Source: Branchiostoma floridae (taxonomy: Eukaryota; Chordata; Leptocardii; Amphioxiformes; Branchiostomatidae). Taken from it: 64,000 nt of DNA. Numbering within the stretch: position 1 is the first letter of the stretch; each line of letters starts with the position of its first letter. Location of the stretch: positions 12,228,957 to 12,292,956 of the forward strand of contig NC_049992.1 in the NCBI RefSeq assembly GCF_000003815.2, read 5' to 3'. The translations under genes and the position numbers were made by a program. Below, in pieces: positions 6,417-62,800 of this stretch. The notes below the pieces were generated by a model, which worked only from the letters and a program-made list of their open reading frames with translations, searched no databases and was not told where the DNA came from.

Positions 6417-8685
6417 GCATAAGCACCAACAAAGAGTATCTTTATTTGAACCATAATCCCAATAGTGTGTTAGTACTATATGTGAAAGTGATTTCGATCC
6501 AGTTGAGCTCACTGAAGGGCTATATATATATTTTCTTCACTTTACATGATGGAGAAGAAAGACGCCATGTACAGTATTTACAGGTTAATTGTACCGGGGA
6601 AATTCCCCTCTCCGTCTCTTCGACAAGCACAATGAACAGTGAACCAGAGCTTAACGCCTCAAGGGCTTCCAGTCTTTTGGACGGGACGTTAAGCTGTGGT
6701 TCCGGTAGCGATACAGAAGGGATCGGACTAACGTCTTCTGTTTCCAGAGGCACTGGACCAGTGACGCACCTCTATGTCGGCATGTCGGTAACACCACATT
6801 ATGTTTCTATCATACGTCATTTCCAAACTTTTCTCTTGACAGTCAAGTACAGAATCTAACCACATGGAAGTTTGTTACTGACACTCCATGTCTATTTCTT
6901 GGTTTGCCCAGTTCTGCCGTTCTTGAGTTCAATTAAAACATAATATGCAAATAATAAGATGCAATAATCAGAATTTGTAAGTCAGCCGCAAAATGTTCAT
7001 ATGACTTTTTCTTACTTATGCAAGGTTAATATAACCTCCATGACTTAAGCACGTGTCTAGGTGCTAGTAATTGTTCAATTAAGATCACTTATTCATGCAT
7101 AAAAGTAATGAGGCTGATATAGAACCTCCTTAAGAAAAGGCTGACGTGGTATTTTTTTTGTGCTTCGCCTGGTGTTTTGACATTTTGTTTCCTGTGCTTG
7201 GGAAATATGATATTTGGCGTTATAACTCGTGCTTAACTCATATCTCGAGAAGTAAGCAGAGTTTGCAGCTTACAACTACGCACCAAGAGACCTTTTTAAT
7301 GATACCAAGTTTGACCGACAAGAACACACCCTTAGCCAAGTTGACTGACCTACAGATTTGGACCAAGCCTCTGATATAGAATCTGATGATTGCTAAATAC
7401 CTATAGCTAACGTTTTATTGATAGACCCGAGGAGAAACTTGAGACTACTATATTAATGGGTGGAGACAATGAGTCTGCAACTAAATCACAGAAGAGATTC
7501 ACAGGATGCACGTATATTAATTAAACGTTAGTCAACTTGATGAGAAAAACGTACAGAACTGAGGGGGAGTTGAAAGACAGGACGCGCCCATGGTGGCATA
7601 GGCTGCTGAGAGATCTGATGCAGTAGGGGGGGGGGGGGGGGGGGGGGGGGAAAAAAAAAAAAAGGAGGAAANNNNNNNNNNNNNNNNNNNNNNNNNNNNN
7701 NNNNNNNNNNNNNNNNNNNNNNNNNNNNNNNNNNNNNNNNNNNNNNNNNNNNNNNNNNNNNNNNNNNNNNNGGGGGGGGGGGGGAGAGACAGAAAGAGAG
7801 GAAGAGGAAGTTCCAACAATGCTGTACTTTCTCCGGAAATAAAGTTCGCCAATACAACTCTACTGCAATGGGACATGGACTCTGATTTCCAGTGGAATCG
7901 AAATTGTCACTCCTGTCTACTTGACTGTGAAGATTGGGACCGTGAAAGGAGATCGCGATCGATTGAATCTTTGCGGCAATCACTTTATGCCTCTATATTT
8001 TGATATATAATAACTATGCAAATGTATGCGTTACATGTCAATCTTCAAGTAACTGGGGTGGGAACCTGACGACATACGGGAAACAGTTTTTCTTGGTCAC
8101 ACGGCGGTCCGAAAAACGAACCTGAAATGTAACAGCACATATATTAAGGACTATGTACTTGTACCATTTCAGTTTTGACAGCCGAACAACTACACCACTG
8201 TGTGCCACTCTACCAGGCAATTTACTCTGTATACTAGTATATGTAACGTTAGAGTTTTAAACTAATTTTGTATTTTCTACAAGTTGTAAATGTGATTATG
8301 TCATTTTGTATGCACAAGCATAATTCAGGCTGCCTGCGAGGCTTTGTATGTAGTGTATGCATTTCTGAATAAACCAATTATTATTGAATAAAAACACTGT
8401 GGGTCGGATCCTTATTTAAGTCGCTTCCTTGCGGATCAGTCTGGAAGCAACTTTGCCTAGGCAGGGGTTACACGTTTGGGCGCTTACCGGTTCAAGAAAA
8501 GACCGAGTGAAGTAGAGTCGTATTCATAGTCATTTCTACCAAGTTTTTATAGTTAAACTTACAGAGCATAACGTTACACAAGGCTTCGGATCCGGATTTC
8601 AAAACCCCCAGTGGGAGTCGGCCGCGCGCTCAGGCCTCAGTTTGTACAAAAGGTTAAAGGTCAATAAAAGCCACACGGAATCAAA
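6417..8685. other. Intergenic: copy A 3' flank, gap, SDF4 promoter side
   Basis: This holds the probable 3' UTR of copy A, then AT-rich DNA, the homopolymer-flanked gap at 7672-7771, and the 5' flank of SDF4. Open frames around 6446-6859 on both strands have no recognisable domain and are probably chance. The final 100 bases before the SDF4 ATG are GC-rich (GGCCGCGCGCTCAGG). No TATA box at a convincing distance was seen. Confidence 0.5.
7672..7771. other. Assembly gap (100 N) flanked by G/A homopolymers
   Basis: Exactly 100 N. A run of 25 G followed by 13 A lies to the left and 13 G to the right, so sequencing or assembly probably failed in a G-rich tract. The true length is unknown. Confidence 0.95.
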
Positions 8686-11600
8686 ATGGCGGCGTCCAGG
8701 GGTTGTTTTGGCGTTTGTCGACAGCTTTGGACAATCTTGTGCCTTTATCTCGTCTCCACTGTGGCCTTTCTTGGACTCTGCAGTGTCGTAAGAGCCAGAC
8801 CTCTCGAAATGAAGAACAAAAGTACGTCTAAGAACGCCGAGGACGACAAGCTGAGCCCGCCCGACCACCTGGACGCTGTGCGTATGGAGAGAGACGGCCA
8901 CCTGAACAGAGATTTTCACCAGGAAGTTTTCCTCGGGGAAGAGAAGGATGACATCGAGCAAATCCCGCACCACGTCATCGACGACAGGCTGAAGGAGATA
9001 TTTAAAAGGTTAGGCGGATTTTAGAGTCGTAGCTACAATCTGGAGGATGTACTAGTAGATACATATGTAACGCCATATGCGTGTGTTACAATACAGGTTA
9101 CATCTGAGAAGTTGTTAGGTGAGTTACTATATATATATATCAAGGACGTTATATAAATTTCTATATAATGCCGACCTTGCTATATATGCCTTAGTAACCA
9201 CAGATAAGACATAAGAAGTTGACCGAAGCTATAGTATCAAATTCACAGGCAATAGATATTCGATTTATGGATATAACTTTATATACTAAAGAGCGATATA
9301 CTAAATTTATGATCGTAATTTGTTTGTACTACAAGTTGTAGTGGTACCAGGGCTCGAAATACCCACTTGCCCACTTGAAAATGCAACCACATTTTGCTTT
9401 GTGCAACTTTATTTTAAACCCATGTTGCACACTGCGCAACCTGAAATTTTGCAGTTGGAACACTGCTTTTCCCCACCTACTCAAGTACCTGCATAAGCTT
9501 TTGTATTTATTTTTCGATAACATAAAACATATTACATAGTTACATATAGCTATAAGAAAAGATAATGGATAAGTAGCTGATTTGAAGAAAGTAACAACTT
9601 GAAAGTGGGGCAACCTGAAATGTTGATGATGCAACCTGGCTTCTCCCCCGATCAGGTTTTCACTTGGACACCCTGGCTGAAAAAAGTACTGCTGTACAAT
9701 GAATTTTCCTTACTTGCATAACTATTATATCGATATACTGTACGTTTGTGTGTGCATTTTTAGCTACCTTGAAGATTAGACTTGATAGCTTGACTATGGG
9801 TCACCACCTAATCCTATTCCATATCAATCATTTGAATCAATGATTTCAAAGAATGAATCGAAGGCACTGTCTAGCCCTTGACTTACTACTACTAGTAATT
9901 AACAGTGTTTGGACTTCCTTGCTTTGGTTGAAAGAAGATGATGTTACCACTCAACTGTGGTGCTAAACCTCAAATTTTGCCTGCACTTATCTGTACATGC
10001 AGATGGTATTTTAAGCCGTTACTTTTAACCTGCTGAAACATGTGTAGTATACTTGTCCAGAAAAACGACCACTGGAATAGTCAGGCTTTTCATTTGATGT
10101 CATCTGTCCCATGTTGGATTACCTTGTGTGTCTATGTGAAACACAGGAAACTGTCATTGTTTGATCCAATTACCTGCCAACATGGTTGCTGGGGGATTCA
10201 AATTATAATCATTATGACAATGATATTAATGATACTGATGCACTTCATTATCATCTTTACCCTGAATCTTTACTTTGAGCCACAGCTAGTAGTAGTAGAT
10301 ACCCTCCTTCTGGGTAATGAGGCTGTCCTAGTTGCTTCAGTGGTAGCAGTTAGTAGGTGAAGCAGTGCTCGTACTGGTCTGGAAGATGTTTCCAGTCGCA
10401 TGCTAGTAGAGTTGAACTCGTGCACTGACTTGCTGGAGACTGTGCTAGATGAGAGTTTATTCCACACTGGGGTAACATGTTGGGAAGAAGTGTGTCATCT
10501 ATCCCAAAGTTTAAAGTTGGGTATATTTTTTTATGTCATACCTGTGACGCGAAAACATTCAATACGGGTGTTCCGGACCGGGTTTCCAAGTTGTATCACA
10601 CAGGCCTCCTTCGAGTAAATTAAACTATTTTAAATGGGCCGAATACGGCACAGTTGAAAATTCGAATGCCGGATTCGGACGTTAGAATTGCTGTTGTTAC
10701 AATATTTTGTTCGAGGACACAACATTATCTCAACTTCTGGTGCATTTCGCATCGAAATATGTGTTTTCTCAGGTGGGTATGACATGAATAAAATACAACA
10801 CAGTGTATTCCGTATCACCCGAGGTACCAGCCCGACCGCAGGAAGGATCGCCCGATTGCCAAAGGCTGGAGGGTGATCCAACCTGCGGCAGGGCCGGGAC
10901 CGTATTCTATATTTATTCCACACTGGGGTAACGTGGGGAAGAAGTGTGTCGTCTATCCCAAAGTTTAAAGTTGGGTATTTTTTTTACAGGATAGACGTGG
11001 ATACAGACGGCCTCCTGACCCAACAGGAGCTCCAGGACTGGATACTGAGGAAAACACAGGAACACTTCCAGGAAGCTGAACAGGAGAACAGCAAACACTT
11101 CCAGGAAGTGGACCAGAACAAAGATGGTAGAACAATCATTACTAACTTATATAGTACTGTAGAGTAAGTTAAAGTTATCATACAGCAGGGCTTTAGCCAG
11201 CTCGAAATTTTTTCTGTCAGCCAATTACAATCGTCGCGAAAACCGCGAAAATTAATTAGAAGGACTGAACTGAGACCTNNNNNNNNNNNNNNNNNNNNNN
11301 NNNNNNNNNNNNNNNNNNNNNNNNNNNNNNNNNNNNNNNNNNNNNNNNNNNNNNNNNNNNNNNNNNNNNNNNNNNNNNTACAAGTATGGGCAAAACTAGT
11401 ATCCAATGTCATAAAATTCAGACTGCTAGCAGATTTTGCTACTAATACTGTAAATGAAATGTTCGCGGTGGTTTTATGTTCGCGGTTTTTGCGTTGGCCA
11501 CTTCACCGCGAATTTAAACCACCGCGAAAAGTCCATTTTTCCGCTACCGCAAAATTAAATCCCTGCAAACTTTAATGCATTTACAGTACTTCAAATTTAG

Positions 11601-14000
11601 TGGCACTGATATGATATCTGAGTTTTATGTTTGCAGTAGGGTTTTAGTCACAGAAACACTGGTTTTGAGTCTGCAGTACCATGCACATAAAAATACAAAG
11701 TTTAACATATAACTAACACAAAAAAATTCAAGAATTACAGTGTTTAAATTGACACACAAATCTGTAGTTATTGAAGAGGAATGGTATTAATCAAGGGTGT
11801 ATGACTCAGTTGTAATATTGTGCCAAAGTTCTTGATAGATTTCTGAGATTTGTTGCAGTACACTGTGTATTTGACTGAACAAACATTTTATCTGACCCAG
11901 GTAACCTACACTGGGATGAGTACCGACTACAGTTCCTGGAGAGTCGGGGGTACGACAGGGACAAGATCATGGAGGTCATCCAACAAGACACTGAAATTGA
12001 GATGGATGTGGATGGTAGGAGAAATACAGCAACCACTTTGAAAAACGGCATAGTATTTAGTTTTGTGTTTCAATGATGTTATTGAGACTCTAACTAATAA
12101 AGCATCTCTGCTTTTGATTGTAATTTGATGAAAATAATTTGAATAGATGTAACATCTGTAACATATGCAGTCTAAACCATTGTCTAGATAGTCTTTAGTA
12201 TTAAAGTACTTGAAATAGGACAAAGTGTTTGAGACTCATCAAATTGGATATTCACAGCTGATACCAGACTACTACAGAGGCATGCTTCTTTTTATTACAA
12301 TGTCTGTCATAGCAACTATGCAATAACTGAAGACTGAAACTGGCTCTTTATTTGCACATGGTTTCAGATGAAGAGGATCTGGAGAGGGACCATGACAGGT
12401 TCCTCCAGGCAGATGAGGACCCGCGGGATGAGCTGTTGAATGAGAAAGAGTTCTTGGCCTTCCGCCACCCAGAACACAGCAGCAGCATGCTCAGTCTGAT
12501 GGTTCAGGAGATACTGCATGACTTAGGTAAGGATGGGATAATCTTAAGTTCTCTAAGCTTTACCCTTGTTGCATATTTGTGAGCTAACATGGATTGTGGT
12601 CAGAGCTGATAGCAACAATAGACAGGTGTTGCAGGAGACTTATCCAGTTTCAGTACACCTTCTGTTAGTTGATGAATTGTTTCTTAGTTGCTAAAGCATT
12701 TATGCCTTTGATACTTGCAAATGTAAACTCTGTATGTTATTTCAAAAATACAGTCAGACCTGGTTGAGCAACCATATGGCAGGCGACCACGTCCAGTCAC
12801 AAGCCACATATCCCCAGGAATCTTTGAAAAACACCAGACAGGCAACATGAAACCCTGGTTCAATAAAAACAAACAAAAAAACATAAAAAAGTTTTGTCCA
12901 TTTGTATATGGTTTACCTCACCCAGTCCTGAGTGACCATTTTTCCTCAGACTACAAAATGTAACTTGTTTGGTCCTGTCCTTGTGTGTTACAGATCAGAA
13001 CAGTGACCAGATCCTGACCCTGCTGGAGTTTGTGTTCATGCTGTAAGGAGAGTTGGTTGAGGAGTCTAAAAAATGTAATTTGGTCCTGTCCATGTGTGTT
13101 ACAGATCAGAACGGTGACCAGATCCTGACCCTGCTGGAGTTTGTGTAATTTGGTCCTGTCCATGTGTGTTATAGATCAGAACGGTGACCAGATCCTGACC
13201 CTGCTGGAGTTTGTGTCCATGCCGTAAGGAGAGTTGGTTGAGGAGACTAAAAAATGTAATTTGGTCCTGTCCATGTGTGTTACAGATCAGAACGGTGACC
13301 AGATCCTGACCCTGCTGGAGTTTGTGTCCATGCCGTATGGAGCGAAGGTTGAGGAGGTGGAGGACAGTAAGGACACCTGGGTGGTCGAGCGCAGGCAGGA
13401 GTTCAAGGAGGTCATGGACACGGACGGGGACGGCAAGGTCACGCTAACGGAACTAGAGGTCAGAAACAACAGAGTAACTAGTTGTTATAACTTGTATCTT
13501 TGGACTCTCATTTGATGTCTATTTTTTTCCTTTTAGATTTCTTCACTGTTCATCTCAATCAGGAAAAACCTCTACTTAAAAAACCAAAATTACTGAAGAA
13601 GCCACAAAGCAAATCATGTTTGCATGTTGGCACGAATAAAGCTCCAAATGGGGAATATGTTGTTAACGGTTCCAGCATCTTTTCTGAAGATGTGGCATAA
13701 GTGTGTGGGGTTGACTTGAGTTTGTCCTTTCCCACGTACTCTAGACTAGAGTACGTGGGAAAGGACAACCTCAAACCAACTGCACGTACTTATAACTGAC
13801 ACTAACTTGCACTATTTCCACAGGCCTACATGGATCCCCGCAGTGACCAGCAGGCACTGAACGAGGCACGCCAGATGATCAGGGTCGCTGACGCCAACAG
13901 CGACGGAAAACTTTCGCTGGCCGAAATCCTGGACAACTGTCAGTTTTTCATCGGGAGCAAGATGGCAAACTATGCAAAAGTTGTGCACGAAGAGTTCTGA
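8686..14000 (+). CDS. SDF4: 45 kDa calcium-binding protein (Cab45)
   Basis: Seen: six exons, 8686-9008, 10990-11126, 11901-12014, 12368-12526, 13286-13458 and 13824-14000, giving 360 residues. The ATG is in a good context (CAAAATGGC) and opens a signal-anchor-like hydrophobic stretch at residues 15-35. Then comes the block PPDHLDAVRMERDGHLNR and six EF-hand segments: DVDTDGLLTQQE, DQNKDGNLHWDE, a degenerate DEDPRDELLNEKE, DQNGDQILTLLE, DTDGDGKVTLTE and DANSDGKLSLAE. The C-terminus is HEEF. Known: Cab45 is a soluble Golgi-lumen CREC-family EF-hand protein that oligomerises with calcium and sorts secretory cargo. Vertebrate Cab45 is about 360 residues and also ends HEEF. Inferred: the same Golgi role here. 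The third EF-hand has an atypical loop, as in vertebrates. Odd: intron 4 carries three extra copies of the start of exon 5. Confidence 0.95.
9121..9199. mobile_element. AT-rich foldback element in SDF4 intron 1
   Basis: Imperfect inverted halves of about 38 bp. The left arm is GAGTTACTATA...CAAGGACG...TATATAA and the right arm is its complement ending TAGTAACC. It is non-coding and MITE-like. Confidence 0.55.
10456..10984. repeat. Direct repeat of the SDF4 intron 1 3' end
   Basis: About 73 bases ending at the polypyrimidine tract before exon 2 (10912-10984, starting TTTATTCCACACTGGGGTAA) also occur at 10456-10530 with few changes. About 380 bp lie between the copies. The upstream copy lacks the acceptor AG and the exon. 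A duplication or an insertion split the acceptor region. Confidence 0.75.
11279..11378. other. Assembly gap (100 N) in SDF4 intron 2
   Basis: Exactly 100 N between exons 2 and 3. The flanking exons join in frame, so no coding sequence need be missing. Confidence 0.95.
11446..11588. mobile_element. MITE with TACTGTAAAT ends
   Basis: Inverted ends TACTGTAAATG and CATTTACAGTA enclose an interior with inverted GTTCGCGG/CCGCGAA blocks. Part of the same family seems to lie at about 11230-11255 (CGCGAAAACCGCGAAAATTA). It is non-coding and lies in SDF4 intron 2. Confidence 0.7.
12994..13334 (+). repeat. Four tandem copies of the exon 5 acceptor plus exon start
   Basis: The same acceptor and the first 41-49 bases of exon 5 occur four times, with exon-like segments starting at 12994, 13105, 13175 and 13286. 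Spacings are 111, 70 and 111 bases. The short one is explained by a 41-base internal deletion in copy 2. Only the fourth copy continues into the full 173-base exon. Copies 1 and 3 end at GTAAGG, a good donor, where the real exon has GTATGG. This makes 49-base cassette-like exons (12994-13042 and 13175-13223). Each early copy, if read through, meets an in-frame stop. Confidence 0.92.
13722..13768. repeat. Perfect 23-bp inverted repeat with 1-base loop
   Basis: Left arm 13722-13744 (starts TTGTCCTTTCCCACG) and right arm 13746-13768 are exact reverse complements around a single A. It lies in SDF4 intron 5, 55 bases before the last exon's acceptor, and could form a strong pre-mRNA hairpin. Confidence 0.85.
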
Positions 14001-14183
14001 TAGGAAACCTTCACTGCAAAGAGATATCTAAAAACAAAACAAAAAGTTTATGTCAATTCACTCCCATCAGATTATGTTGAAAGAAGAGCACACTGGCTGC
14101 ATTGTGAAACCAAAAGTAGCAAAACAGAGCTGTACGTATTGAGATAGGTACTGCATGATAGGTGCTCTATTGGTGAAATTTGC

Positions 14184-25369: not shown

Positions 25370-25497
25370 CTTCTTCTTTCTTTCTCCTGTCAAATCTTCA
25401 AAGCGATTCATCTCCGTCGGTCTTGGACCGAATTAATGACTTGAAATTTGGCGAAAGGGTAGAGTGGACCAATACCCACGTGCTCTTTTTTCATTTT
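25370..25497. repeat. Dispersed repeat, unit 2 (fragment)
   Basis: This matches the early part of units 1 and 3: CTTTCTCCTGTCAAATCTTC through TTGAAATTTGGCGAAAGGGT. It is immediately followed by unit 3 in the same orientation. Confidence 0.7.
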
Positions 25498-25500
25498 TAT

Positions 25501-26070
25501 ATTTCAGCCATACCATATATGGTATGGTGAAATATATTGTATTCGTAATGTTTCTTTCTTTCTTTCTCCTGTCAAATCTTCAAATCGAATCATCTCCGTC
25601 GTTCCGGGACCGAATGACCTGAAATTTGGCACAAGAGTAGAGTGGGTCAATACCGAGGTGGTTTTTTCTCATTTTTTTCATATCTGCCTCTAAAATGATT
25701 TTATTGAAGTTTAAAGGTCACGTTTTGACCACAACGGTATATTTTGACCCCCTGTACCATTGAATTACAGTGGAATGACCTTAAATTTGGTGTAGATAGG
25801 CATTAGATAGTTGGTAAAATGATCCAAGTAAAATTTTTGGCATGAACCAATTTCAAATTATTAATTTCTGCACTTTTCTGAGGGGAAATTGGTTTTCTTT
25901 CGGCCTTCTCCCGTGAACTCCCGTGACCCCAGAGCCCACAGGTGCCAGGTGCCAGCGGTCTGGGGAGAGCGAGAGTTAATTACTTTATGGACGCCAGCCA
26001 ATCAGCGACGAGAAAGGCGAATGCTAGTTAATATTCATAAGCGGGGCCTTGCAATCCCGTTTATACACAA
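25501..26070. repeat. Dispersed repeat, unit 3
   Basis: Full-length second copy in the same orientation as unit 1, starting with ATTTCAGCCATACC and an almost perfect palindrome at 25498-25533. It ends near GTTAATATTCATAAGCGG. It is longer than unit 1 because of about 60 extra bases, including CCAGCCAATCAGCGACG. Confidence 0.8.
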
Positions 26071-27604: not shown

Positions 27605-29099
27605 ATCGGTTACAGAATGAAATGGGGGGGAGGGGGGGAGCTAGAAAAGTATACACCATATTGGGAGGTTAGTGTCGTTTAAGGTCTTTTGATATACTTC
27701 AAGAAAAAATGATGACCAAATTTCAATCCTACCCTGATTGATTCATCAGGTGTAAATGTTTTGAAATGACAAGTCCACTGTTACAGTTTACTCTGTTTAT
27801 GTTAAAAACTTTTTCTCTCCCACAAAATTTGCGATTTTAACAAGATGCAGAAATATGATATATGGTCATGACAATACGTTCTTGTTTGCATGCAGCAGAA
27901 AACTGCATGTGATAGCTCAAGTCATACGATTGCAAATATATAATAATTTGTATCTTTTATTTTGTCACTGATCAAAATGCTCTATATATACAGGACCACT
28001 GTATTGATGTATATGGAAACTGTACATTGAAACTTCCCTTCTACTATCCAGTACCTATGTGTATGCAAACAGTCTATTGTCGTCTTTTGAAAAGGCCAGA
28101 GAGTGAGTAGAACGCCTTTTAGTATACCTTAAGTAGAACTGTACAACATCATTGATTTCTGTCACGATGTACATACATTATTCTCCATTCGCACACTTTT
28201 GATAAAAACTCTGCAAAATACATCCGACGGAAACTATATGTATAAGTGTCAACCTCTACATTAAATGGCAATTATCATATAGCCAACGTTGACCAATCAG
28301 CAGGACTAATTTCATATGGCTAAGACTCCGTAACATCTTATAAGTGATACAAGGTGTGGAAAATGAATCTCAGCCGGGTATCTAATGACATTGACCAATC
28401 AGGATGAGGTGTCTAATGACATTGACCAATCAGAATGATGAGTATCTTTTTGAAGGAACAAATGTAATTGATAAAAAATTGTACAGCTTTATTTACATGT
28501 ACAGTGTCACATGAATTTGTATTTCTTATATTTATCAATTTCTATAGGCTATATGATAATAACGTGAATCACCCGCCCGTTTCTCGATGTATGTGGTGCC
28601 ATAAGTCTTCTATTCAGCGGTCATACCTCGGGCAGGTGATTAACCCATTATTGATCATCGCAAACACTGCAAAGTGCAACAATATCTATACCTTAATGTC
28701 TAAAGGCCGATGGAAAATACTTGCAGCCCAATGTGCCTTTCGGCACGGGAGGACCTAGGGTCTAAGGTAATGTCTCGTGCATCTGTTTCCAATAGCTTGG
28801 ACCAATTATATAATGTACAAAATTGAGAAATATCAGCCAATCATTGTTATTGTATTTGTATCAATATGCATCTAACTGGTTTCAAAAGTCAAAAACATGG
28901 TAAACTAGAGTTCCACGAACACATACCTTTGCCAAATAAACCAGGTTTGCTATGTAGAATGATGTCTGTAGACAAAAATGTGTTACTCATTACATTTTAT
29001 TTTATATACCTGGAGTTACTTAAAATCTTTGCCATTGATTACACAAATTAGATCCCTATCTACATAATTAATATCAAAGTGTATGAAGCATCACTTAAG
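27605..29099. other. Intergenic AT-rich DNA with CCAAT-type duplication
   Basis: No gene recognised. A 22-base unit beginning TCTAATGACATTGACCAATC occurs at 28381-28402 and 28412-28433, and a related GTTGACCAATCAG lies near 28290. A G-rich stretch is at 27624-27640. Confidence 0.5.
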
Positions 29100-30125
29100 C
29101 TATCAGCATACCAAAAAATCATGATGATCTTTTCATCCCTTCTTGATTTATTCTATTCCAAAGTCTGAAACTAAACCGGCTCCAGCTGTTCAAGAAAAGA
29201 CGTTAGGGGACCCAAACATACACCTCTTACTCTCGGCCATCTTCCTCAGTTACATATGTGACAAGTTTGAAAGTCCTATCACATAATGCAGTTAATTTAT
29301 CATTTTTCCTCATTAATCATGCAAATTAGCTGTTAATTTACATAATTAGTATCTTATTATGTAAGTTTTCACTTAGGCTACCTACATATCTCTTTCTCAG
29401 CTACAAATGTGACAAGTTTGAAAGTCCTATAATGGAATGCAGTGGATTTACAAACTTTCCTCATTAATTATGAAAATTAACTGTCAATTTGCATAATACG
29501 AATTCCATCATGTAAGTCTTCCCGTTGGCTATCTACATACCAAAAAGCATGACGATTCGTCAACACGTTCATATTTCTCATTATATATGCAAATGAGACC
29601 ATCATTTGCATAATCAATATGCAATGATATTTCTCTCTTTCTCATCTATATATGTGACAAGTTTGAAAGTCCTATCATGAAATGTAGTGGATTTACAAAC
29701 TTTCCTCATTAATTATGCAAATTAGCTGTTGATTTGCATAATTAGTATTCCATTATGTAAATTGTTACTTGGGCTATCTACATACCAAAAATCATGACGA
29801 TCCATCTACACGTTCTCGAGTTATTCTCGTCCAAAGTTTGAAAGGAAATCGGCGGCTGCAGTTCCAAACAAGCCGCTAGGGGATCCAAACTTACAGCACT
29901 TACTTTCTGCCCCAGGGGCTATCTACCAATCAAAAATCATGACCACAGCATGTCCATAACACGAGATATCAAAAATTGAGGTTCTGCTGCAGTACCTTAG
30001 TAAGCCGCTAGGGGGCCCATTATCGAACTTGACCTTCCTTTTCCCGACCCCTACCCACCTACCAAATATAATCAGGATCCATCCAAGGCTTCTCGAGTTA
30101 TGCTGTTAACACACACACACACACA
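29100..30125. repeat. AT-rich repeat family with tandem octamer-bearing units
   Basis: Three diverged units share GTGACAAGTTTGAAAGTCCT (near 29260, 29410 and 29655), each followed by a CCTCATTAATTATGCAAATT-type block. Outer sequence includes CTACATACCAAAAATCATGA and GCCGCTAGGGG, ending in an (AC)n run at 30109-30124. The octamer ATGCAAAT or its complement occurs about six times. A diverged relative lies at 47820-48300. It reaches to within about 100 bases of the copy C stop codon. Confidence 0.75.
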
Positions 30126-30229: not shown

Positions 30230-33200
30230 TTAAAGTTTCTGGTCGAAAGTCTCCTGATTCGCTGAGATGCTGACGGACCATTGTCCGTTGGCTTGTCCTG
30301 GTATCTTGTCGTTTTCGTCGTTAGTTATCGCCATTTGTCCGTTGGATTTTGCAGCTCTGTCATCGACTGGTTGCCTAGTTTCACCTGAAAAATAAAAAAA
30401 TGGCAACAACGTGTAAACAAAAATACGACAACAGTACGCTTGCCACAGCCGCAATCACTTGAAGTTTGCTACTCATACAGGAAATTCCCGTGCACGTACC
30501 GAGTTCAAGAGCTTGGTTGTCATGTGCCCCGCTGGTGACGTTGTTTGATGCCTTAGAGCTGTCCCTGCCTCTGCGCTGGGGGAAGATCAGCTTCTCAAGC
30601 CCGAAGAACGGGAACTCCACCATGATGGAGGCAACGAAGCCGCACAGGAAGGCCATGAAGGAGTACGCAATGAAGTAGAACCACTGAAAAAGACAGACGA
30701 TCGAGTGATGTAAGTGAATACCAATGGCAGCCATGTATGAACAAACATAGACCAATGTTTCATTTTATTGCCGTAACATATGTGGTTCCGAATCTCATCT
30801 AATGATCAATGGTTTTTAAGGTCATGAGTTAAAATGATGTCTCACCCAATTAGTAGCCGAGTAGAACAGTGGTGTTTTGAGAGACATGGTGTAGACATGC
30901 ATGATGATGGGGTGCACGAGGTACGCAGTGTAAGTCAGGCGACTCAACGGCACCCACCCGCTCCAGGATAGGAACTCCGTGATGATACCTGAAAAATGAG
31001 AATGGAATGTAAACGTCTCTAAGAACTGATAGAAAAAAATGCGTCTGCGCAGTTGAGATTGTTTTAGCGACAACAATAGAAATATTCTTTGTAAAGAACC
31101 GTAATCAAAAGATTTGATTTCTTGTATGGTTTCCCCTCCGCGTCTTGCATATGTGGATTTATGTGTGACTTTAATGTCTTATTGTTACGCATTTGTCGTT
31201 GGTCATAAACCGATGATTTCACTTGACGTAAACTACTGGCGCAATCTTTATATCTTTATCGATATAGCCCTATAACCGCCAATCGGCTTAAGACACCAGT
31301 TTGCACAGGCACGCGGCGCGGCCGCAGACGGTTATATTGCACTAAAAAACTTTGCACATTTCACTGCAAATGTTGTTTGAAGGTATCTAGTGAGGGTGCG
31401 CCTTGTTGTAAGACAATTTTGTAGGCATTTGAAGAAATGAGATCTGAGTAAAGAGATTGAAAAGTATGCAATCTCGTACCTCCATATCCAACACAACAAG
31501 CGAAGACGACCCAGGCCACAGCACAGGAAAACATGGTCCTGTCAAACGCCCTCCAGGCTGGTTGGCCCCAGATGGAGAACGGGGTCCCGATCCACCCGGG
31601 AGCGCCAACAAACAGAACAGCAACGGCGGTCGCACCAAACCAGCCCAGCAACATCAGCGCCTGGATGTAAGGAATCAGTGTAATACATGTAGTTTTAGAA
31701 CTGTAATGCTACGTTGATTCCATAATATGGATGACATCCACGCGCGTCAATTTTCCTCCATTAAAAAAAACGTTTCTGACCATACTATATAAATCGGATG
31801 CAATGCTGATGCAAAATGAGTTAATGAATAAAACCATATTTTCGGTCAGCTGCTTTTAAGATTTGTACTTTTCTTTAAATACATCGTCCGTACCTTTGTG
31901 CTGCCGGTGTTGGGCACTTTGCGGTCAGTCGTGAAGAGAATGTAGCCCATGAGTAGTCCAACCATGTACGGTCCCATACGGGTGAATGTGAACTTGTACA
32001 CCGTAGCGTAATACGATCCGGACGGAACACTAGAATGAAATAAAAGAAGAGCTGTGAGTCACAAGGACAGAAGATTCCAAAAAACGTCTCATAGAGAATG
32101 TAATCATGTCTGTTTTAAAGTGTAACTGAAATGGAATCGTCTGTAGCATTTTCTATCACTAATGTAAAAATTTGATCTTTACTGAAAAAGTCAATGCAAG
32201 TTTCAAATCAATTGTCCGTCCGGAAGTCCCTCAAACAGCGACATAAAAATGTGTACTTTGAGCTCTTTGCTGGAACTAATTAGGAACAGGCCGTGACGTC
32301 ATTTTAGTTAGTCCCCTACTAGCTGGTATGGTTGACTAGGGGAATAATATACATTTGATAGACCCATATCTTATAAAGGAAACATAATTGATTGACGAAA
32401 CTCGGCACGACTAAAGAACACATACTTCACTTCACTTGAAGAGAATTTCGTTTGTATTCACGCCACTAAAATATATCTTAGAGGCACTTGAAGTTGATGC
32501 ACGTACTAAGAGTGCGTAACGCAAGGGGGGAGAAAGTTCATTATTGTAGCGTGTGGAATAAGCGGAGACAAACAGTCATCGCTTCTTCTATACACAAATG
32601 ATAGCATTAACTTACATTATCCTCAGTAAGGAGGCAATGCTGTACATTAATTTGAAAATATTTTCTAGCGGAAGCGCAGAAGTTTGTGCCTCTTTGCGGT
32701 CCGACAGTCTGCAGCTTGTGTCTAGCGAAACCGGGGCTAAAGCTTCACTGTCGCGTACAAATATACAACAGCCAACTACGTACAATTCGCCAGGATTTAA
32801 ATCAGAAGCAACCTCATTGCCACAAGAAATGCTACTCAAAATAAATTCCCACTCAAAGTATGTGTTTGTTTACAAACCTGTAAGCTTTTATCGGATAGAT
32901 AGTACGTCGTAGACTGACTATTTCTAGTCGTGAGCACGGCCGATAGCTAAACGCCTCCAGATTTTGACGAGTCCGTGAAACATTTCGGGAGTGACTGTTC
33001 GTTCTGTCTCATATTTGTCTGCACAACAGACAGATTTCGTAAGCTCCCAGTGATTCGAGGAAAACACACAGACTGTTGTTTCCGTGATAGAAAATTCGAA
33101 AAGTGTGGTTAAATAATAGCGCATGGCACGGGGCCGCCATTTTAGTGTGAGGGATTTTTCTTTGTTGTTGACGACGAAAAATCCAAGATTCACTCGTAAG

Positions 33201-36200
33201 TAGGTTTTACGGAGACCATATCAGTACTACATATCAATGCTACAATATTCATGACAAACTCTAGCGACAAAAGTGCCAAGTTTGTAGCTACACGAGCAAA
33301 AAAAAACGAGTTATCGATGACATAGTAACGAGTCCGTACATGCTTGTGGTCCCGCAACCCCGATATATTTCCTTTGTTTACATGCTCAGGTTACGCTAGA
33401 AGTTTTTATACAAAACCAGACTATTTTAACTCATCTATCAACAACATGTCCACCGCTAAGACACTACACAACAGACAGATTTCGTAAGCTCCTAGTGATT
33501 CGAGGAAAAACATACAGACTGGTGTTTCCGTGAAAGAAAATTCGAAAAGTCTCCGGTTTTTAGCGCACGGCCGCCATCTTTTTTGGGGCCACTAAAGTTT
33601 TTCTTAGAGTTGTTGTTGTTGACGACGAAAAATCCCAGATTCGCTCGTAACTTGGTTTTACGGAGACCAAGAACTACAATATTCATAACAAAACCTATAG
33701 CTAGTGACAATTTTTCCAACGTATTTTGAATACGGTCAGCAAATTTTCGTGCTTGAAAATCTTGGGACAGCGTCGGCATCATTGCTGTTACGTGTTCGGT
33801 ATAAGCGGTTCACTTTGTTATGAAATCTATCCGGACGCCGACTGTGAAAGATGTAAAATCCAAGAATCATTTGTGCTGTTTTGTGTCGGAGTCTAAGCGT
33901 ACAAGTACTTCACAATAATGGCAACACAGTTATGACCAGAACAAGCGAAATACAAGGTAAATTTACAGGGCGAATTACTACTAGTATGTGACAGATAAAC
34001 GTCCTGCAGCTGTGATAAACTGTGGCGAATTCACCCTTCTCCGCGCGCGTTCCGTGACTGGGAGTCGGCAGACCAGCGGTGTCAATAGTTGGAACTTTTC
34101 CTGCGATAATCCTTCTGGTCCTCCCACAGCTCTCCCCAATATAATCTCAAGGTTCATGTTGAAGTACGAGGGCTCGAAGTGTGCAGAGCCATAGATGTCG
34201 CGGAAGGAACCATGCCGATGCCTCTGAACAAACTTGATACATAATTTTGTACACTGTTTTCTAGCTCGCTGAGACTCTCAATTTGTCAGCCGCAGTTCTG
34301 TCATTTTTAACTTTGGGGAATCTGTGCATAGATATCCCCTCGGTAGACTGACTATTCTTACAGCTAACGCCATGTGGGCCTCCTGCGACACAATAACTTC
34401 TACTGGACTTTGTACTAACACGACCTGTAGTACAAGACGCCATTACAGCGGACGGGGGTAGAGCTACTAGAAGAACGCGACTCTCTAAAATGACGTCATG
34501 CATATCATTTTAATTCGCCCTCGGATGCCCCAAATCGCACTTTTTGAAGACGTTTTAACATTACTTCCCGACCGAATTATCACATGGAAAATATTTCAAT
34601 CTAATAGCGAGGAAATGATCCTCTAGATCGTTAAAGAATAAATTGTATTCATTATTATTTCTGCAAGTCTTTAATGCTTTGACTTCTTTTCTTCCAAGTA
34701 GAAATAGTCTACAGCAGTGTTATATTCATTTTAGTGAATGAATGAATGAATTTATTGTACATTTTTGCCCAACCGAGCTAAGTACAGGTCACAACAAGTC
34801 AAAACATTTATATATATATATATATATATATCATCACAGATCTAACACAGAAGTTCGGCTTCTTCTCGTTTCTTGGTAATCGTGAAAATGTAGGACTGCA
34901 TGGGTTTAGCTTAATGGCCGGTTTATTAAAACGCATCTGGAATATAAACTTGTCAGTGCTACTCATCTGTCTAAAGTATGTAAACTAATCGCAGAAGAGG
35001 TTGATAAAGCCACATACTTGACGAAAAGGTGGTAGAGGATTCCGGTGAGGAACATGCTGAGGATGAGGAAGAAGGTCACCAAACCTACACCCAACTTCGG
35101 CTTCCTGAAAGATATGAATAAACAATCTATTGATTACAACCGTTCGCCTGCAAATCTTTAAAAAGCTGCTCTGAAGGCTCTAAAACATTTATGGTTAGAG
35201 AATGCTTCTGTAAAGCAGTTGTCGTTTCAGCTTTCTATGTAATGATATCCGCGTTAAGTATGTATCCTGTGTGAGGCAAGCTGACTTACTTGTAGAGCAG
35301 AACCAGTAGGCCGGGAGCTATGACGTACAGCTGCATGTCCACACCAAGGTACCACGACCAGCCGAAACACTGTGGATTGGAAAATTGACCCGTTATGAAA
35401 TGAGTGACTCTGATAAAGCATCACGTTAATTGAGAATCAGCGGTAGTGCTGATAACGTTTAAGCAACATTTTTTAGTATCTTAATACCTCTTGTTCACCG
35501 TTGAACCAGTTGTTGATGTATAACAGGTTTGTCCACATCCACGTTTGACAGGCTTTCATGTTCCCCGTGGCGAGGTTGATAGGACTAGCCCAGACGGGTC
35601 CCGTCCCCATGTAGACCATCAGGCAGGCAAAGATCATGATGAGGAAGGCGTACACGGGGGTCAGCCTGGAAACAAAGCACACAGTCAAAGTGTTATCTTA
35701 ACAAATTGCTTGGATGAAACTTGCCAGTGAAGTATATGGTCTAAATCCCCTATCAGATATCATATCAAGACCATTGTTATGGCACGGCCTAAACATAGTA
35801 CAGCCTAAAATTTACCTTACGTTTGCTAACATATCCACCAGTGAAAGATAGGGAACACGGTTAGAAGGAACCCTAACCTCCAGTAACGGTGCAGGTAGTG
35901 AAGAAGCAGGTCCTTCCCAGTAAAGGAGCCGCCATTCTTCTTCAGCTGCTTCATGAACAGGTAGGACACCAGCAGTGCACTGTAAAAAAATTCAATCAAC
36001 GAAGGCTAGAAATGTAATTATACAGGACCGTATTTGTGTTTGGTATGTACATACTCAACGAATATTTCAATTTTCCATTAAATGCAGTTTTTTTAAAAAG
36101 CTACTATTTGTAAAAACTTTAAAAATCATATGGGTAGCGATTCCACAACTGGATATGAACATGTTGGTGCAATGATTAGATAAAGTTTGATTGCTTGTAT

Positions 36201-44721: not shown

Positions 44722-46750
44722 ATGATAGCTCACCAGCTGAAAACGGTAGTCCTTCTTCTATGGTTTCCGTTCTGTCTGGCACAATACAGTACTGGTGCTA
44801 CAAATCATTCGTGTTTGGTTACCACCACACCAGTACTGTTATGTCGAAATCAAACTGACAGATTTACATTTGCTTACTCCAGGTTTAAAATATTGGAGGA
44901 GTTGCATTTAAGCAGCAATCTACTTCGATCTTTTCCTAATTTTCCCTTCATGCCGAAGTTATCTAAAGTGTTTCTTAGACATAATCTGCTCGTAACGTTT
45001 CCTTGGTTTTCACTGGGAAATGTTTCCCATCTCCAAGAGTTGGTTCTAGACAGCAACAATCTAACATCTATCGACATAAGTGAGGACAATGCTCCAACAA
45101 ACCTGCGTAGACTTTCGGTGGATGAGAACAATTTGCAGTTCATCACACCCTTTCCAAACCTGCCATACTTGGAAGATCTTCTCCTGTCCAATAATAGACT
45201 TAGAGAGTTTCCGTGGGAATCTCTCCCTAACCTACCACGTTTGGTGAAACTAGATATCTCCTTTAATAGTTTAGCTCGGGTCGAGCCTGCAGGTATATTG
45301 GACACGGTCACCGATCTCCAGATACTGTTTTTTTTAGGAAACAACATGATGCGATTACCCGAGGCCTCTTTGCGTACAAAGTCCCCTGTTCAACTTCTAC
45401 TAGCCCATAACCCAGTACATTGTGACTGTAGCATATATTGGCTATTTGACATTGATTGTGATAAGAACTCGACGTGTTGTCAGGATAGCGACTACTGCAA
45501 TGGAAATGAATGCACCGTATGTTCAGTAGGACCAGAGGAGAAGAAGATATCAAATATCCTCTGTGAGACTCCCTTCGAATACAAAGCTAACAATGGACTG
45601 GAAGAATTCCTAAAGATATGTGAGCCTCCTCAGACCTCGACCATGTCCTTTGCTACAACCGTCCCAATCTCGACACAAGCTGCAGAGGAATTGACGAGCC
45701 TGACATTCCGTCCAGGCGGACTAAACGAGACATCCCTTTCAGGTGAGTAACCCTTACGTGACTGTGTGAAGTGGTCGGATTTTATAATACAGTGTATACA
45801 GCAGTGTCATCTATAATATTCTGTTAGTTATTTCATGGTACTATGAAATAGTCTTTTGACACGAGTATGTACCTATCACTTTGTTTGTCTATCTATCTGT
45901 CTGCTTGTCTCTATGCCTACTTTATCTCTTGCTCTCTTTCTGTCTCCCCCTATTCCTCTCTCTCTCTCTCTTATGTGAGATTATGTTTTAGCTCAAATTA
46001 TTAATGGCCAGGTCCATGTATGATTTTCCTCTAGCTCCAGATATCAAGTCTACGCCGGAGGCTTCCACGACATTCGTGCCAACGTTTGCTTCCACGGACC
46101 GTTCGCCACGTCCATCTCCAAGCCTTCACCCAGCGCTTTTCGTCCTGCCCCCGGTCGTTGTTGTCGTTGCTCTAGGTGTTTGCGTCACGTTTGGCTTAAA
46201 AAACGTACGCCAACGTCGCCAACGCCGTCCCAAACAGGCTCGAGGTCAGTGCGTCAACGCAAACTACGGGTACCAGCAGAGGAGCAGTTCTTCCTTTGAT
46301 AACGGCACAACGCAGCGTACGGCACAAAGAGAAAGTGCGGGGAGCGACCAGCCGGAGCCAGAGGACCCCCATGTTCAGGCTACACCCTCCTCTCTCTACA
46401 ACATGGCTTCAGTCTTCTCCTTCGCGACCACATATGGCGCGGCAGCCGCAGCTACATACTCTCCCAGCACTCAGATCAGAACAAACTATCAGACATACAC
46501 CAACGAAGAAGTTTTCTGCGGCACCCCAACTGTTGACGCACGGCCTATGTCGTTCTTCGCGGACAGCTCAGCGTACGGTCGCGCAGATCTGGCGGACAGC
46601 TCAGCGTACGGTCGCGCAGATCAGGCGTACAGCTCAGCGTACGGTCGCGCAGATCAGGCGCTGTCAGAAGATTCGTTACGACACGACAGTGGGTCCGTCT
46701 CCCCTCTGTACAAGACGGCTGGTGCCGTTATTAACGATACCTTTGGGTAA
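44722..46750 (+). CDS. LRR single-pass receptor-like protein A
   Basis: Seen: two exons, 44722-45742 and 46035-46750, 578 residues. Signal peptide about 1-20 (VVLLLWFPFCLAQ). About eight leucine-rich repeats span residues 50-225 (for example LEELHLSSNLLRSF, LEDLLLSNNRLREFPW). An LRRCT-like cap follows (NPVHCDCSIYWL, then several Cys). A Ser/Thr-rich stalk crosses the intron. The transmembrane helix is at about 374-395 (FVLPPVVVVVALGVCVTF), then basic NVRQRRQRRPK and a tail of about 180 residues. The tail contains SSLYNMASVFSFAT and three 11-residue repeats with SSAYGRAD. Known: this layout is typical of LRR cell-surface receptors, which expanded strongly in amphioxus. Ligand and signalling unknown. 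The gene is the tandem paralogue of LRR-B, with the same intron position and phase. Confidence 0.87.
46562..46660 (+). repeat. In-frame 33-bp minisatellite, three copies
   Basis: Units at 46562-46594, 46595-46627 and 46628-46660 are nearly identical (core AGCTCAGCGTACGGTCGCGC) and encode xSSAYGRADxA three times in the LRR-A cytoplasmic tail. LRR-B has one equivalent, RSAYGHTD, near 52245-52270. Confidence 0.9.
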
Positions 46751-59800: not shown

Positions 59801-62800
59801 ACGTACAGTACATCAGGAAAAGGGAAGTCTACCATCAGATAACCAGAGTTACATGACTAACTTACCTGTGGGATGATTGACAGTTGAGATGGGTAATTGG
59901 AACCTGAGGTCCCAGCACACATGGGTACCACTGCTGGTACCGACACCCAGCCAGCACTGTTTGTGGTCCACAGCAAATGATGTGATCAGACCTGTGCAGA
60001 AAAAAACAACAAAAAAACATGTGAGACTAGACAAGCACAAACTGATGGACTTTGTTAAACAGCATTTTCAACAAGTCTTCCCAGCACTAAACTGTGAAAT
60101 AGCATAACCATTCTGCAGAGTACGTTAAAGTACAAAGACTCACCATATTTGGGGTCGTTCTTGAGCTTCCAGGCCTCGCCAGGAGCTCGGAGATCCCACC
60201 CCACCAGGTTCCCGTGGACAGTAGCGTACACCAGGATTGACTGGGAACCTGTAATGAAAACAACAAATTGTCTTTTGCTTGTTTTGATTCCGAAATCTGT
60301 AAGCTTGGAAACCAAGTTAACTAATAAATGTTTTAATTTAGAATATATAATTTGTGAGTTAAACTAACAGAATTTTATACACTTCCTGCAATTCAACACC
60401 TTTTTGAAATGGCACAACTTACATTTAATTTTGACACTGTTCACATTGGTCAATGGATTATCTGTATTCTAAATTGCATCATTACTATAGCAGTTTTTAC
60501 ATTTCTTTGCTTAAGAAACCATGCATAGTTGGGAAAAGGGCTTTTTTGTACTAATTTTTTACACTGCAGCCCTCATGACAAATTCCGACCCCAAAAGAGA
60601 ACCTTTCTTTTATATATTCATCATTTGGTTGGACCAAGCCAAGGATTCATTTCTCCTCTTACTACATTAAATCTATATCAAACTTCATGAAAGTGGCTGT
60701 AGCCAGTCCTGTCACACTTTAATTTTAAAGAATAGACAAAAAAACTGCAACTGCCTAGTACCTGTGTCAAAGTGGTTCATGTCCACCACACACCCCTCTT
60801 CCTGTAGGTCCAGTTCCCTCGAATGTAAGATGGAAATTCTGGGGGTCCCTGGTTCAACTCTGGAACATTCAACAAGTTGTGTAGATTGATAACTGGACAC
60901 TTTTTGTGGTTTACGTGATTTGAACATACAGAATGTGTTGTAACTTCTTATTTGCTGTACAGTATCAGTTTGTCATGGAGCCATGATCGAAGTCCGTCAT
61001 GTTTGGGATAGCATTCTGTAGACTACAGCAGCCACATGTTGCTGCTCTTCTAAGCGTGTAGCCCTGCCTATGGAACTAGAAGCCGTGAGTTTAATTCCGG
61101 CTGTGTCACTCTCCAACATTCTTCACTCTCTAGTTTGAATGAAGGTGAGAGACATCACAAAACATATTTGGAATGGTAGCTGAGGGGGGATCTTGAGAAG
61201 ATATCTTAAGGATCTTGAGAAGATATATATAAGGATCTTGGAGCCCAGGAACGAAACTAAAGCCAATATAGCATTGGATTGAGATGTCTGGGGAAATGCT
61301 ATTATCAATAATTTTCCATATGCCAGTACAAACTGTACCTCTATAAAAATTTGTGGGTTCTGGAACCCAAAATGACCATGGGTTTACTCAGGGTTCTGAA
61401 CCCTAGAGAACTTGAGCCTTCAGGGTCCAGTCTCCAGAACCTGTCTGGACCCACTGTTAAAATGGGTCCCAAGGAACGTTAACTACATGTACATATTGTA
61501 CGTCCAGGTAACTCCATGGTTTACCTGATGACCTGTATGGATCCGTTGTCAGAAGCTGAGGCCACGGAGTGGGATGATTGGCAGAAGGTGAGACACTTGA
61601 TCTGACCGCCCTGTCTGGTGTACGTCACCCTGGAGCGGTTGGTCACACCCTTCCCCTCCATCCGCTGGCAGTCCCAGATCTTCACCGTGCCATCGTTGGA
61701 GCATGTGCTGAAGAACTGGTGATCATGGCTGACTGAGATCCTGCATAAAATGGACAATATAATGCACAAAATAAAAGTAATGACTTTCTTTTTTATTTAT
61801 TTATTTATTGATCTTTAGGGTAGTCCCTTCAGTTAACGTGGTAACTGATTTCCAAGGGAGCCCTTTATTTCAACCTTTATTTATTAATGAAAGCTCAAAT
61901 CGGCCTGCAGGCCGCTTTTCATTGAGGTCATGGGGGAAGAGGCAAGGGTCAGACAAAGTATATATCACACTTTGTGAGAATTACTTCAGATAATAATTAC
62001 GTTAATAGTTTTGTAACACCGTTTGAATACTTTTGACAATTCCAACTGTTAACAGTACCCATGCAAAGGAAATGGCTACAGTTGATGGTTACGCTCAACA
62101 TAAAAATCATGACTTTGTGAGAATTAATACAGATAAAGATTATGTTAACAGTTTTGTAATGACATTTTAATTCTTTTGTATGCATTGTTCATTGTAATGA
62201 CAGTTAAACCTGTTAACAGTACCTGTGCAAAGGAAAAGGCCACAGTGGACAGGTATGCACTTCAGACAGAATTCTTAATGGTTGGGTCAATACGAAACGT
62301 TATCTAAAGGGACCACAAAGTGGGCACAATGGCCAGGAGGTTCTTATGAAGAGGTGGTCACTTGTACAGGTTGGGTTGGCCTAATGACTAGCATTCACCC
62401 TCTGAGGGACTATGAACATTGTATCCTAATAAGGCTGGAAGAATAGAAGAATACAAAAGAAGGAATAACAGGCTTTAAATTTTTTCCCTGAGCTCCCACT
62501 CAGCCCATGTTAATTTTCTTGCTAAATCTGTCATTTGAAGCTTAGTAAGACACCTTTTCATCAGTTATGAAGTTCAGATTTTAGGGGTGGATGGAGTGAA
62601 TTCTTTTTCCGTCCCAACAATCAAATTTCTGTCCTAAATTTCTGACGGAAGGACGGGTCCTTGAGACAGCCCCGAGGAATAACCGAACGTACCTGTTAAC
62701 CGAGGCCTTGTGTTCGTGCAGATGTGCGACCAGCTGCCCCTTAGGTCTCCACCCCAGGGGTGGGGACTTGGTCTCCCACACAGACGTCTCCATCAGAGTC

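Follow-up and report, generated by a model that had tools for sequence, protein, structure and literature searches.

Four tandem copies of a splice acceptor and exon start in a presumed amphioxus SDF4 gene: very probably a functionless mirage

Intron 4 of a presumed SDF4 gene in amphioxus ends in a repeat of the acceptor and the first bases of exon 5, and the question raised by this locus is whether the extra copies act as decoys in regulated, unproductive splicing or are the product of local duplication at an exon edge. The window, by which is meant the whole 64,000-nt stretch of DNA that was analysed, is G000:C14:12228957-12292956, within a genome of 513 Mb and 431 contigs. A six-exon gene model (8686-9008, 10990-11126, 11901-12014, 12368-12526, 13286-13458, and 13824-14001) kept an open frame through all six exons and gave a product of 360 aa with EF hands, of which six loops were counted by eye, and with HEEF at the C-terminus. 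We take this gene to be SDF4/Cab45; the EF hands and the HEEF end of the product fit the original prediction, which had spoken of SDF4 and its EF-hand 4 exon, and the name itself is kept as our assumption. The available text of one review names both Cab45 and HEEF. A search of solved structures matched 177 distinct chains, and the 60 that were listed were calmodulins or calmodulin fusions, with no SDF4 structure among those 60; they support the EF hands and not the SDF4 name. Two further queries were directed at collections that are not expected to hold amphioxus: the SDF4 C-terminus found no relative in a viral contig collection, and the exact 27-base exon-start pattern gave 0 matches in a genome contig collection. 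Among the matches listed from the literature on poison exons, alternative splicing, and nonsense-mediated decay (NMD), there were 0 occurrences of Cab45 or SDF4.

A 501-nt query of the array had one reported place in the 513-Mb genome. Runs of N, exactly 100 bases each, lie at 7672, 11279, 43220, and 52991 and are probably gaps of unknown size; one of the four falls in SDF4 intron 2, and none touches the array. The array and the exons around it are made up as follows.

12368..12526, + strand: SDF4 exon 4 of the gene model, upstream partner of the array, with donor TTAG/GTAAGG at 12527
12950..13064, + strand: copy 1, with 44 nt of intron end including an extra CTTG, decoy acceptor 12993/12994, and exon-like bases 1-71
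13043, + strand: decoy GTAAGG of copy 1, with in-frame TAA at 13044-13046
13065..13146, + strand: copy 2, with 40 nt of intron end, decoy acceptor 13104/13105, and ~42 exon bases
End of copy 2, + strand: joint with TGT microhomology and a 70-nt step to copy 3, with in-frame TAA at 13146-13148
13147..13245, + strand: copy 3, with decoy acceptor TATAG 13174/13175 and exon-like bases 1-71
13224, + strand: decoy GTAAGG of copy 3, with in-frame TAA at 13225-13227
13246..13356, + strand: copy 4, authentic, with 40 nt of intron end, true acceptor 13285/13286, and exon 5 bases 1-71
13286..13458, + strand: SDF4 exon 5, authentic, 173 nt, from EF-hand 4 onward
13824..14001, + strand: SDF4 exon 6, containing the stop codon, protein end HEEF

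The acceptor and the start of exon 5 are present in four copies, starting at 12994, 13105, 13175, and 13286, and the proposed fourfold repeat with spacings of 111, 70, and 111 was confirmed in three ways. Tandem Repeats Finder reported 70 x 2 (13074-13216), 181 x 2 (12968-13327, 96% matches), and 111 x 1.9 (13144-13356), direct-repeat finding gave family D1 with a 179-nt copy at 97% identity, and a self-BLAST of the window gave 96.6% over 179 nt with an E value of 1.6e-80. The array is not a matter of chance. Its unit of ~111 nt takes in 40 nt from the end of intron 4 and 71 nt from the start of exon 5, and a limit of the homology to the first 41-49 exon bases, as earlier described, proved too short, since copies 1 and 3 track the exon to base 71, with four common mismatches at bases 53-61. 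Three further mismatches were found in copy 1, at exon bases 9, 43, and 49. Copy 1 differs most from copy 4 (8/97 positions), followed by copy 3 (5/97), and copy 2 differs at 1/69, a base at the joint. The microhomology at the joints, read by eye from the printed copies, is 2 nt (AG) and 3 nt (TGT).

Of the five positions at which copies 3 and 4 differ, four lie within 9 nt, at exon bases 53-61 (p = 0.007 for random placement), a pattern that plain drift without homogenisation does not predict. To judge from the letters of these copies (n = 4), the divergent tail is perhaps older, and the neighbouring part perhaps homogenised between copies. The unit is bounded by an acceptor-like TTTTTCCTCAG at 12949/12950 and a donor-like GAG/GTGGAG at 13356/13357, possibly by chance; a birth of the units by a splicing-linked process, which these left and right bounds would suggest, is unlikely.

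In copies 1 and 3, exon base 53 is A instead of T, a change that turns GTAT into GTAA as well as the in-frame codon TAT into TAA. Two of the proposed consequences for translation were borne out: an in-frame TAA is met on read-through from each of the early acceptors, and translation of a chain in which a 49-nt cassette runs into the real exon gave a shifted frame with a stop four codons on. Among 18 exon chains assembled from the sites of the original prediction, the 360-aa protein was obtained from the direct chain only; all 17 alternatives lose the C-terminus, and the stop lies >50 nt before the last junction in 14 of them and not in the other three. Paths were also enumerated over all 43 GTs and the four acceptors, allowing up to two extra exons and a minimum intron length of 30 nt, and 7/456 were productive (the normal path, three in which a single 9-nt microexon is added, and three in which two extra exons are). 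The candidate of an in-frame new exon was dropped, as every productive path with one extra exon needs the 9-nt microexon. Boundary duplication was simulated in the SDF4 gene itself by duplicating one randomly sized boundary unit in 3000 trials per acceptor, and the share of trials in which read-through proved unproductive was 67, 96, 87, 75, and 99% for exons 2 to 6 in order. A complete set of dead routes is therefore not unusual, because simulated duplications at the acceptors of the same gene are mostly unproductive. Design, as read from the dead routes, was rejected on these same figures of 67-99%.

The four acceptors are identical from -26 to -1 except at -13 in copy 1 and at -3 in copy 3, and the copy 1 acceptor has one pyrimidine more than the true acceptor. 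Since the decoys are almost letter-identical to the true acceptor, core signals alone do not explain how the true site would be preferred. Donors were scored with an approximate matrix, and because this matrix and the U1 sequence are generic ones, only the ranking is meaningful. The decoy donors reached 5.0 and 3.6 bits, which places them 22nd and 46th among the 340 GTs of the gene that were scored, and their pairing with U1 has energies of -4.8 and -5.1 kcal/mol. The exon side of the decoys ends in CT or CC, which is poor. The five real donors cover 2.8-9.9 bits and ranks 2, 5, 7, 13, and 62; four of them (ranks 2, 5, 7, and 13) reach 6.0-9.9 bits with energies of -5.5 to -9.9 kcal/mol, the top score of all five belonging to exon 4, and the exon 2 donor, at 2.8 bits, rank 62, and -5.0 kcal/mol, scores under both decoys. 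The decoy donors are thus within the range of the gene itself. As to the consensus donor claimed for copies 1 and 3, GTAAGG is present at 13043 and 13224, but with the poor exon side and the ranks of 22 and 46 the plain claim was set aside after the scoring over 340 GTs.

Minisatellite-like tandem duplications of an intron-exon boundary, called mirages, have been described in amphioxus Adh3, globins, and PGBD5 in the available text of PMC3087553 and PMC3902484. The BflGb6 mirage repeats an intron's 3' end together with the 5' part of exon 2, in units of 150-160 bp that number 6 and 3 in two haplotypes, and in BflGb9 the opposite boundary is repeated in units of 157 bp (PMC3087553, available text). 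There it is also suggested by Adh3 data and globin RT-PCR that regular splicing is undisturbed, an intron-gain model is drawn, and mirages are called possibly general. In PGBD5, repeats of 60 and 108 bp lie over splice sites, their copy numbers being 2 and 3 in one assembly but 7 and 6 in a second, and the authors note scant transcript support for these mirages; Adh and troponin C mirages are cited in the same available text as yielding no aberrant mRNAs (PMC3902484). A dedicated literature search for troponin repeats at an amphioxus intron-exon boundary had no match.

The SDF4 array likewise consists of head-to-tail, minisatellite-like repeats, its unit spans the intron-exon boundary, its authentic copy continues into the remainder of the exon, and it lies in a cephalochordate genome whose own globin arrays fit BflGb9 and BflGb6 by unit length and position. 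Like BflGb6 as described in the available text, it joins an intron 3' end to an exon 5' part and places the decoy acceptors upstream of the authentic exon, and its 111-nt unit falls inside the published spread of 10-160 nt. SDF4 is outside the genes named as mirage carriers in the available text of PMC3087553 and PMC3902484. Unlike the published mirages, the array has one step shortened to 70 nt, and a single base change has given its copies 1 and 3 both GTAAGG and an in-frame TAA. The kind is already published, and SDF4 is one more gene with a mirage.

Exon edges were surveyed in the same genome using 69 of 150 Ras matches and the nine globin matches, a small sample of two families in which some matches have internal stops. 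Globin locus L006 has a 157-nt repeat across an exon end, agreeing with BflGb9, and L010 has an array of ~150-nt period running into an exon, agreeing with BflGb6, in both cases in unit length and position and not by comparison with published sequence; this agreement supports the species and the survey method. Near-tandem duplications span 11/102 internal exon edges (9/84 in Ras and 2/18 in globins, at nine loci, two of which are covered at both ends). At control points in the same loci the count was 427/13,928 (3.1%; binomial p = 3e-4, with edges that are not independent and control points biased low near locus ends, where a pair may be cut off). In the window, where that bias does not arise, 2.3% of positions lie in near-tandem duplications, the SDF4 array included. 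By eye, 10 of the 11 covered edges are clear boundary duplications, L025 being a 41-nt copy 596 nt away and no clear mirage. Coverage is 10-12% from the edge to ~300 nt outside and 2-5% beyond 700 nt, and this flat course means that the enrichment is near exons and not sharp at the edge. With 11/102 edges against a background of 2-3%, the SDF4 array is ordinary in this genome.

Other repeats were seen at the surveyed loci. Near-tandem repeats are also present in L005 and L009 and were not counted as edge-crossing. At 1501 and 1695 of L026 (G000:C7:25722596-25725790), a Ras-family exon has boundary duplications at both ends; the acceptor was seen in three extra copies and the donor in four, AG or GT being intact in all. 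In L043 (G000:C11:3534433-3538600), a Ras segment was matched twice (profile 27-68 and 27-67) with starts 204 nt apart, and one of the two matches has an internal stop; this is a possible duplicated exon.

The AG or GT is intact in 25/25 decoy copies (50/50 letters) of 12 arrays, namely SDF4 and the 11 edges, the reference for L025 being the partner copy and not the exon itself. Other aligned positions in these arrays are 91.6% identical (1536/1676; p = 0.03, with copies that are not independent), and the wider splice-site context is less kept (150/175, 85.7%; p = 0.01), a result that argues against maintenance of the splice signal as a whole. Retention of AG/GT may be due to chance or recency; going by the letters, it could also be what is expected of decoys that are used or maintained.

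We consider it very probable that the array in SDF4 intron 4 is an amphioxus mirage that arose by microhomology duplication, is tolerated via exon definition, and is functionless. Briefly, a segment of ~111 nt would have been duplicated head to tail, with 2 nt (AG) of microhomology at the joint, and further copies would have been added by unequal exchange or slippage. One step would then have been cut by ~41 nt at the TGT microhomology, or a 70-nt duplication would have arisen there, and the copies may have become partly homogenised in their exon-start part. The innermost acceptor, the sole one directly joined to the whole exon and its donor, would be favoured by exon definition, and stray decoy products would be removed by NMD; the array would be tolerated because exon definition favours this innermost pair and most decoy use leads to a premature stop. 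We infer the order of these events, the part of exon definition, and the absence of decoy use. In the available text of work on Drosophila, NMD is argued to hide weak new introns from selection, and by analogy this would fit the mechanism. The alternative outcome offered by the original prediction, a minisatellite born at an exon edge, agrees with the published amphioxus kind and with the frequency of arrays in the exon sample from the same genome. Against a functionless mirage stand the decoy acceptors nearly identical to the true one, the exon 2 donor scoring below both decoy donors, the 25/25 intact AG/GT, and the clustering of most differences (four of five) between copies 3 and 4.

A poison-exon switch, in which regulated use of the 49-nt cassettes or the early acceptors would send SDF4 transcripts to NMD, is very unlikely, even though the loss of the C-terminus in 17/17 alternative chains, the 14/17 stops >50 nt before the last junction, the intact decoy acceptors, the decoy donors that outscore one real donor of the gene, and the intact AG or GT in 25/25 decoy copies of 12 arrays all point its way. 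As in poison exons (AS-NMD, e.g. PMC11357089, available text), the extra exonic sequence of the SDF4 decoys is predicted to bring a premature stop, but the decoys are plain copies of the neighbouring exon, and their donors have a poor exon side and ranks of 22 and 46/340. Simulated duplications at SDF4 acceptors are usually unproductive anyway, and amphioxus mirages elsewhere are reported as harmless to splicing in the available text of PMC3087553 and PMC3902484, so that the unproductive-splicing switch suggested at the outset gained no positive support. A broader version would require the sampled frequency of about one in ten exon edges to hold genome-wide and the intact decoy sites to reflect more than recency. 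The spliceosome would then recognise a layer of tandem decoy splice sites across amphioxus, which would act as sinks for unproductive splicing or provide proto-introns continually, SDF4 being one instance; this version is unlikely.

It is highly improbable that the array represents intron gain by tandem duplication caught early, in which a donor within the exonic segment of one copy would be paired with the acceptor of the copy after it, as the frame would be shifted by the 49-nt cassette and productive paths with one extra exon are limited to a 9-nt microexon over 43 GTs and four acceptors. The anatomy is nevertheless that of the potato RdRp gene (PMC4974935, available text) and of the amphioxus globin model (PMC3087553, available text): GTAAGG at 13043 and 13224 each has an inherited acceptor 62 nt downstream, and premature stops in unspliced forms would mask such an intron from selection, as is argued for Drosophila in the available text. 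In the potato gene, according to the same available text, an intron was gained by tandem duplication and is spliced, with 106 junction reads; potato and SDF4 share a duplication across an intron/downstream exon boundary, with GTAAG as donor inside the exonic segment of the first copy and an inherited acceptor in the copy that follows, but the equivalent splice in SDF4 is predicted to shift the frame. Equally improbable is an assembly artefact, in which two haplotypes or overlapping contigs would have been joined in tandem to give a false 181-nt duplication: joints with only 2-3 nt of microhomology and one shortened step are unlike an overlap join, N runs lie neither inside nor beside the array, and similar arrays were found at other exons, though in the same assembly. 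The 181-nt halves do differ by ~3%, which is within the range expected between amphioxus haplotypes. A precedent is given by BflGb6 haplotype 1, which seemed aberrantly assembled in the genome draft (PMC3087553, available text).

As a single locus, SDF4 adds one gene to the mirage list, and the more useful result is the frequency of 11/102 edges in a small two-family sample. Were this frequency to extend to the whole genome, amphioxus would offer duplicated splice sites in very large numbers as a natural experiment, in which ideas on exon definition, on the gain of introns through duplication, and on tolerance by NMD could be put to the test with existing RNA-seq. Array frequency and decoy-site retention are worth following, more so than the SDF4 locus itself.

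Further repeats were noted in and near the window. At the 3' end of SDF4 intron 1, a 76-nt stretch is repeated at 93% identity (10456-10531 and 10912-10985, with 380 nt between), and the second copy stops 4 nt short of exon 2. The intron 1 copies contain, by eye, a 10-nt inverted pair (ATGTCATACC / GGTATGACAT), which could be transposon ends, and a script found no exact inverted pair of at least 12 nt in them. More near-tandem duplications lie at 29240-29815, 25374-25676, 33019-33669, and 61969-62249, and no exons were recognised in translations of 29000-29920, 33000-33700, and 61800-62400. A 33-nt unit is repeated about three times at 46559-46660, inside an open frame (45992-46750) that adjoins a leucine-rich-repeat gene, and just past the right end of the window, at 1740-2075 of L012, lies an array of ~65-nt period that is roughly 90% identical.
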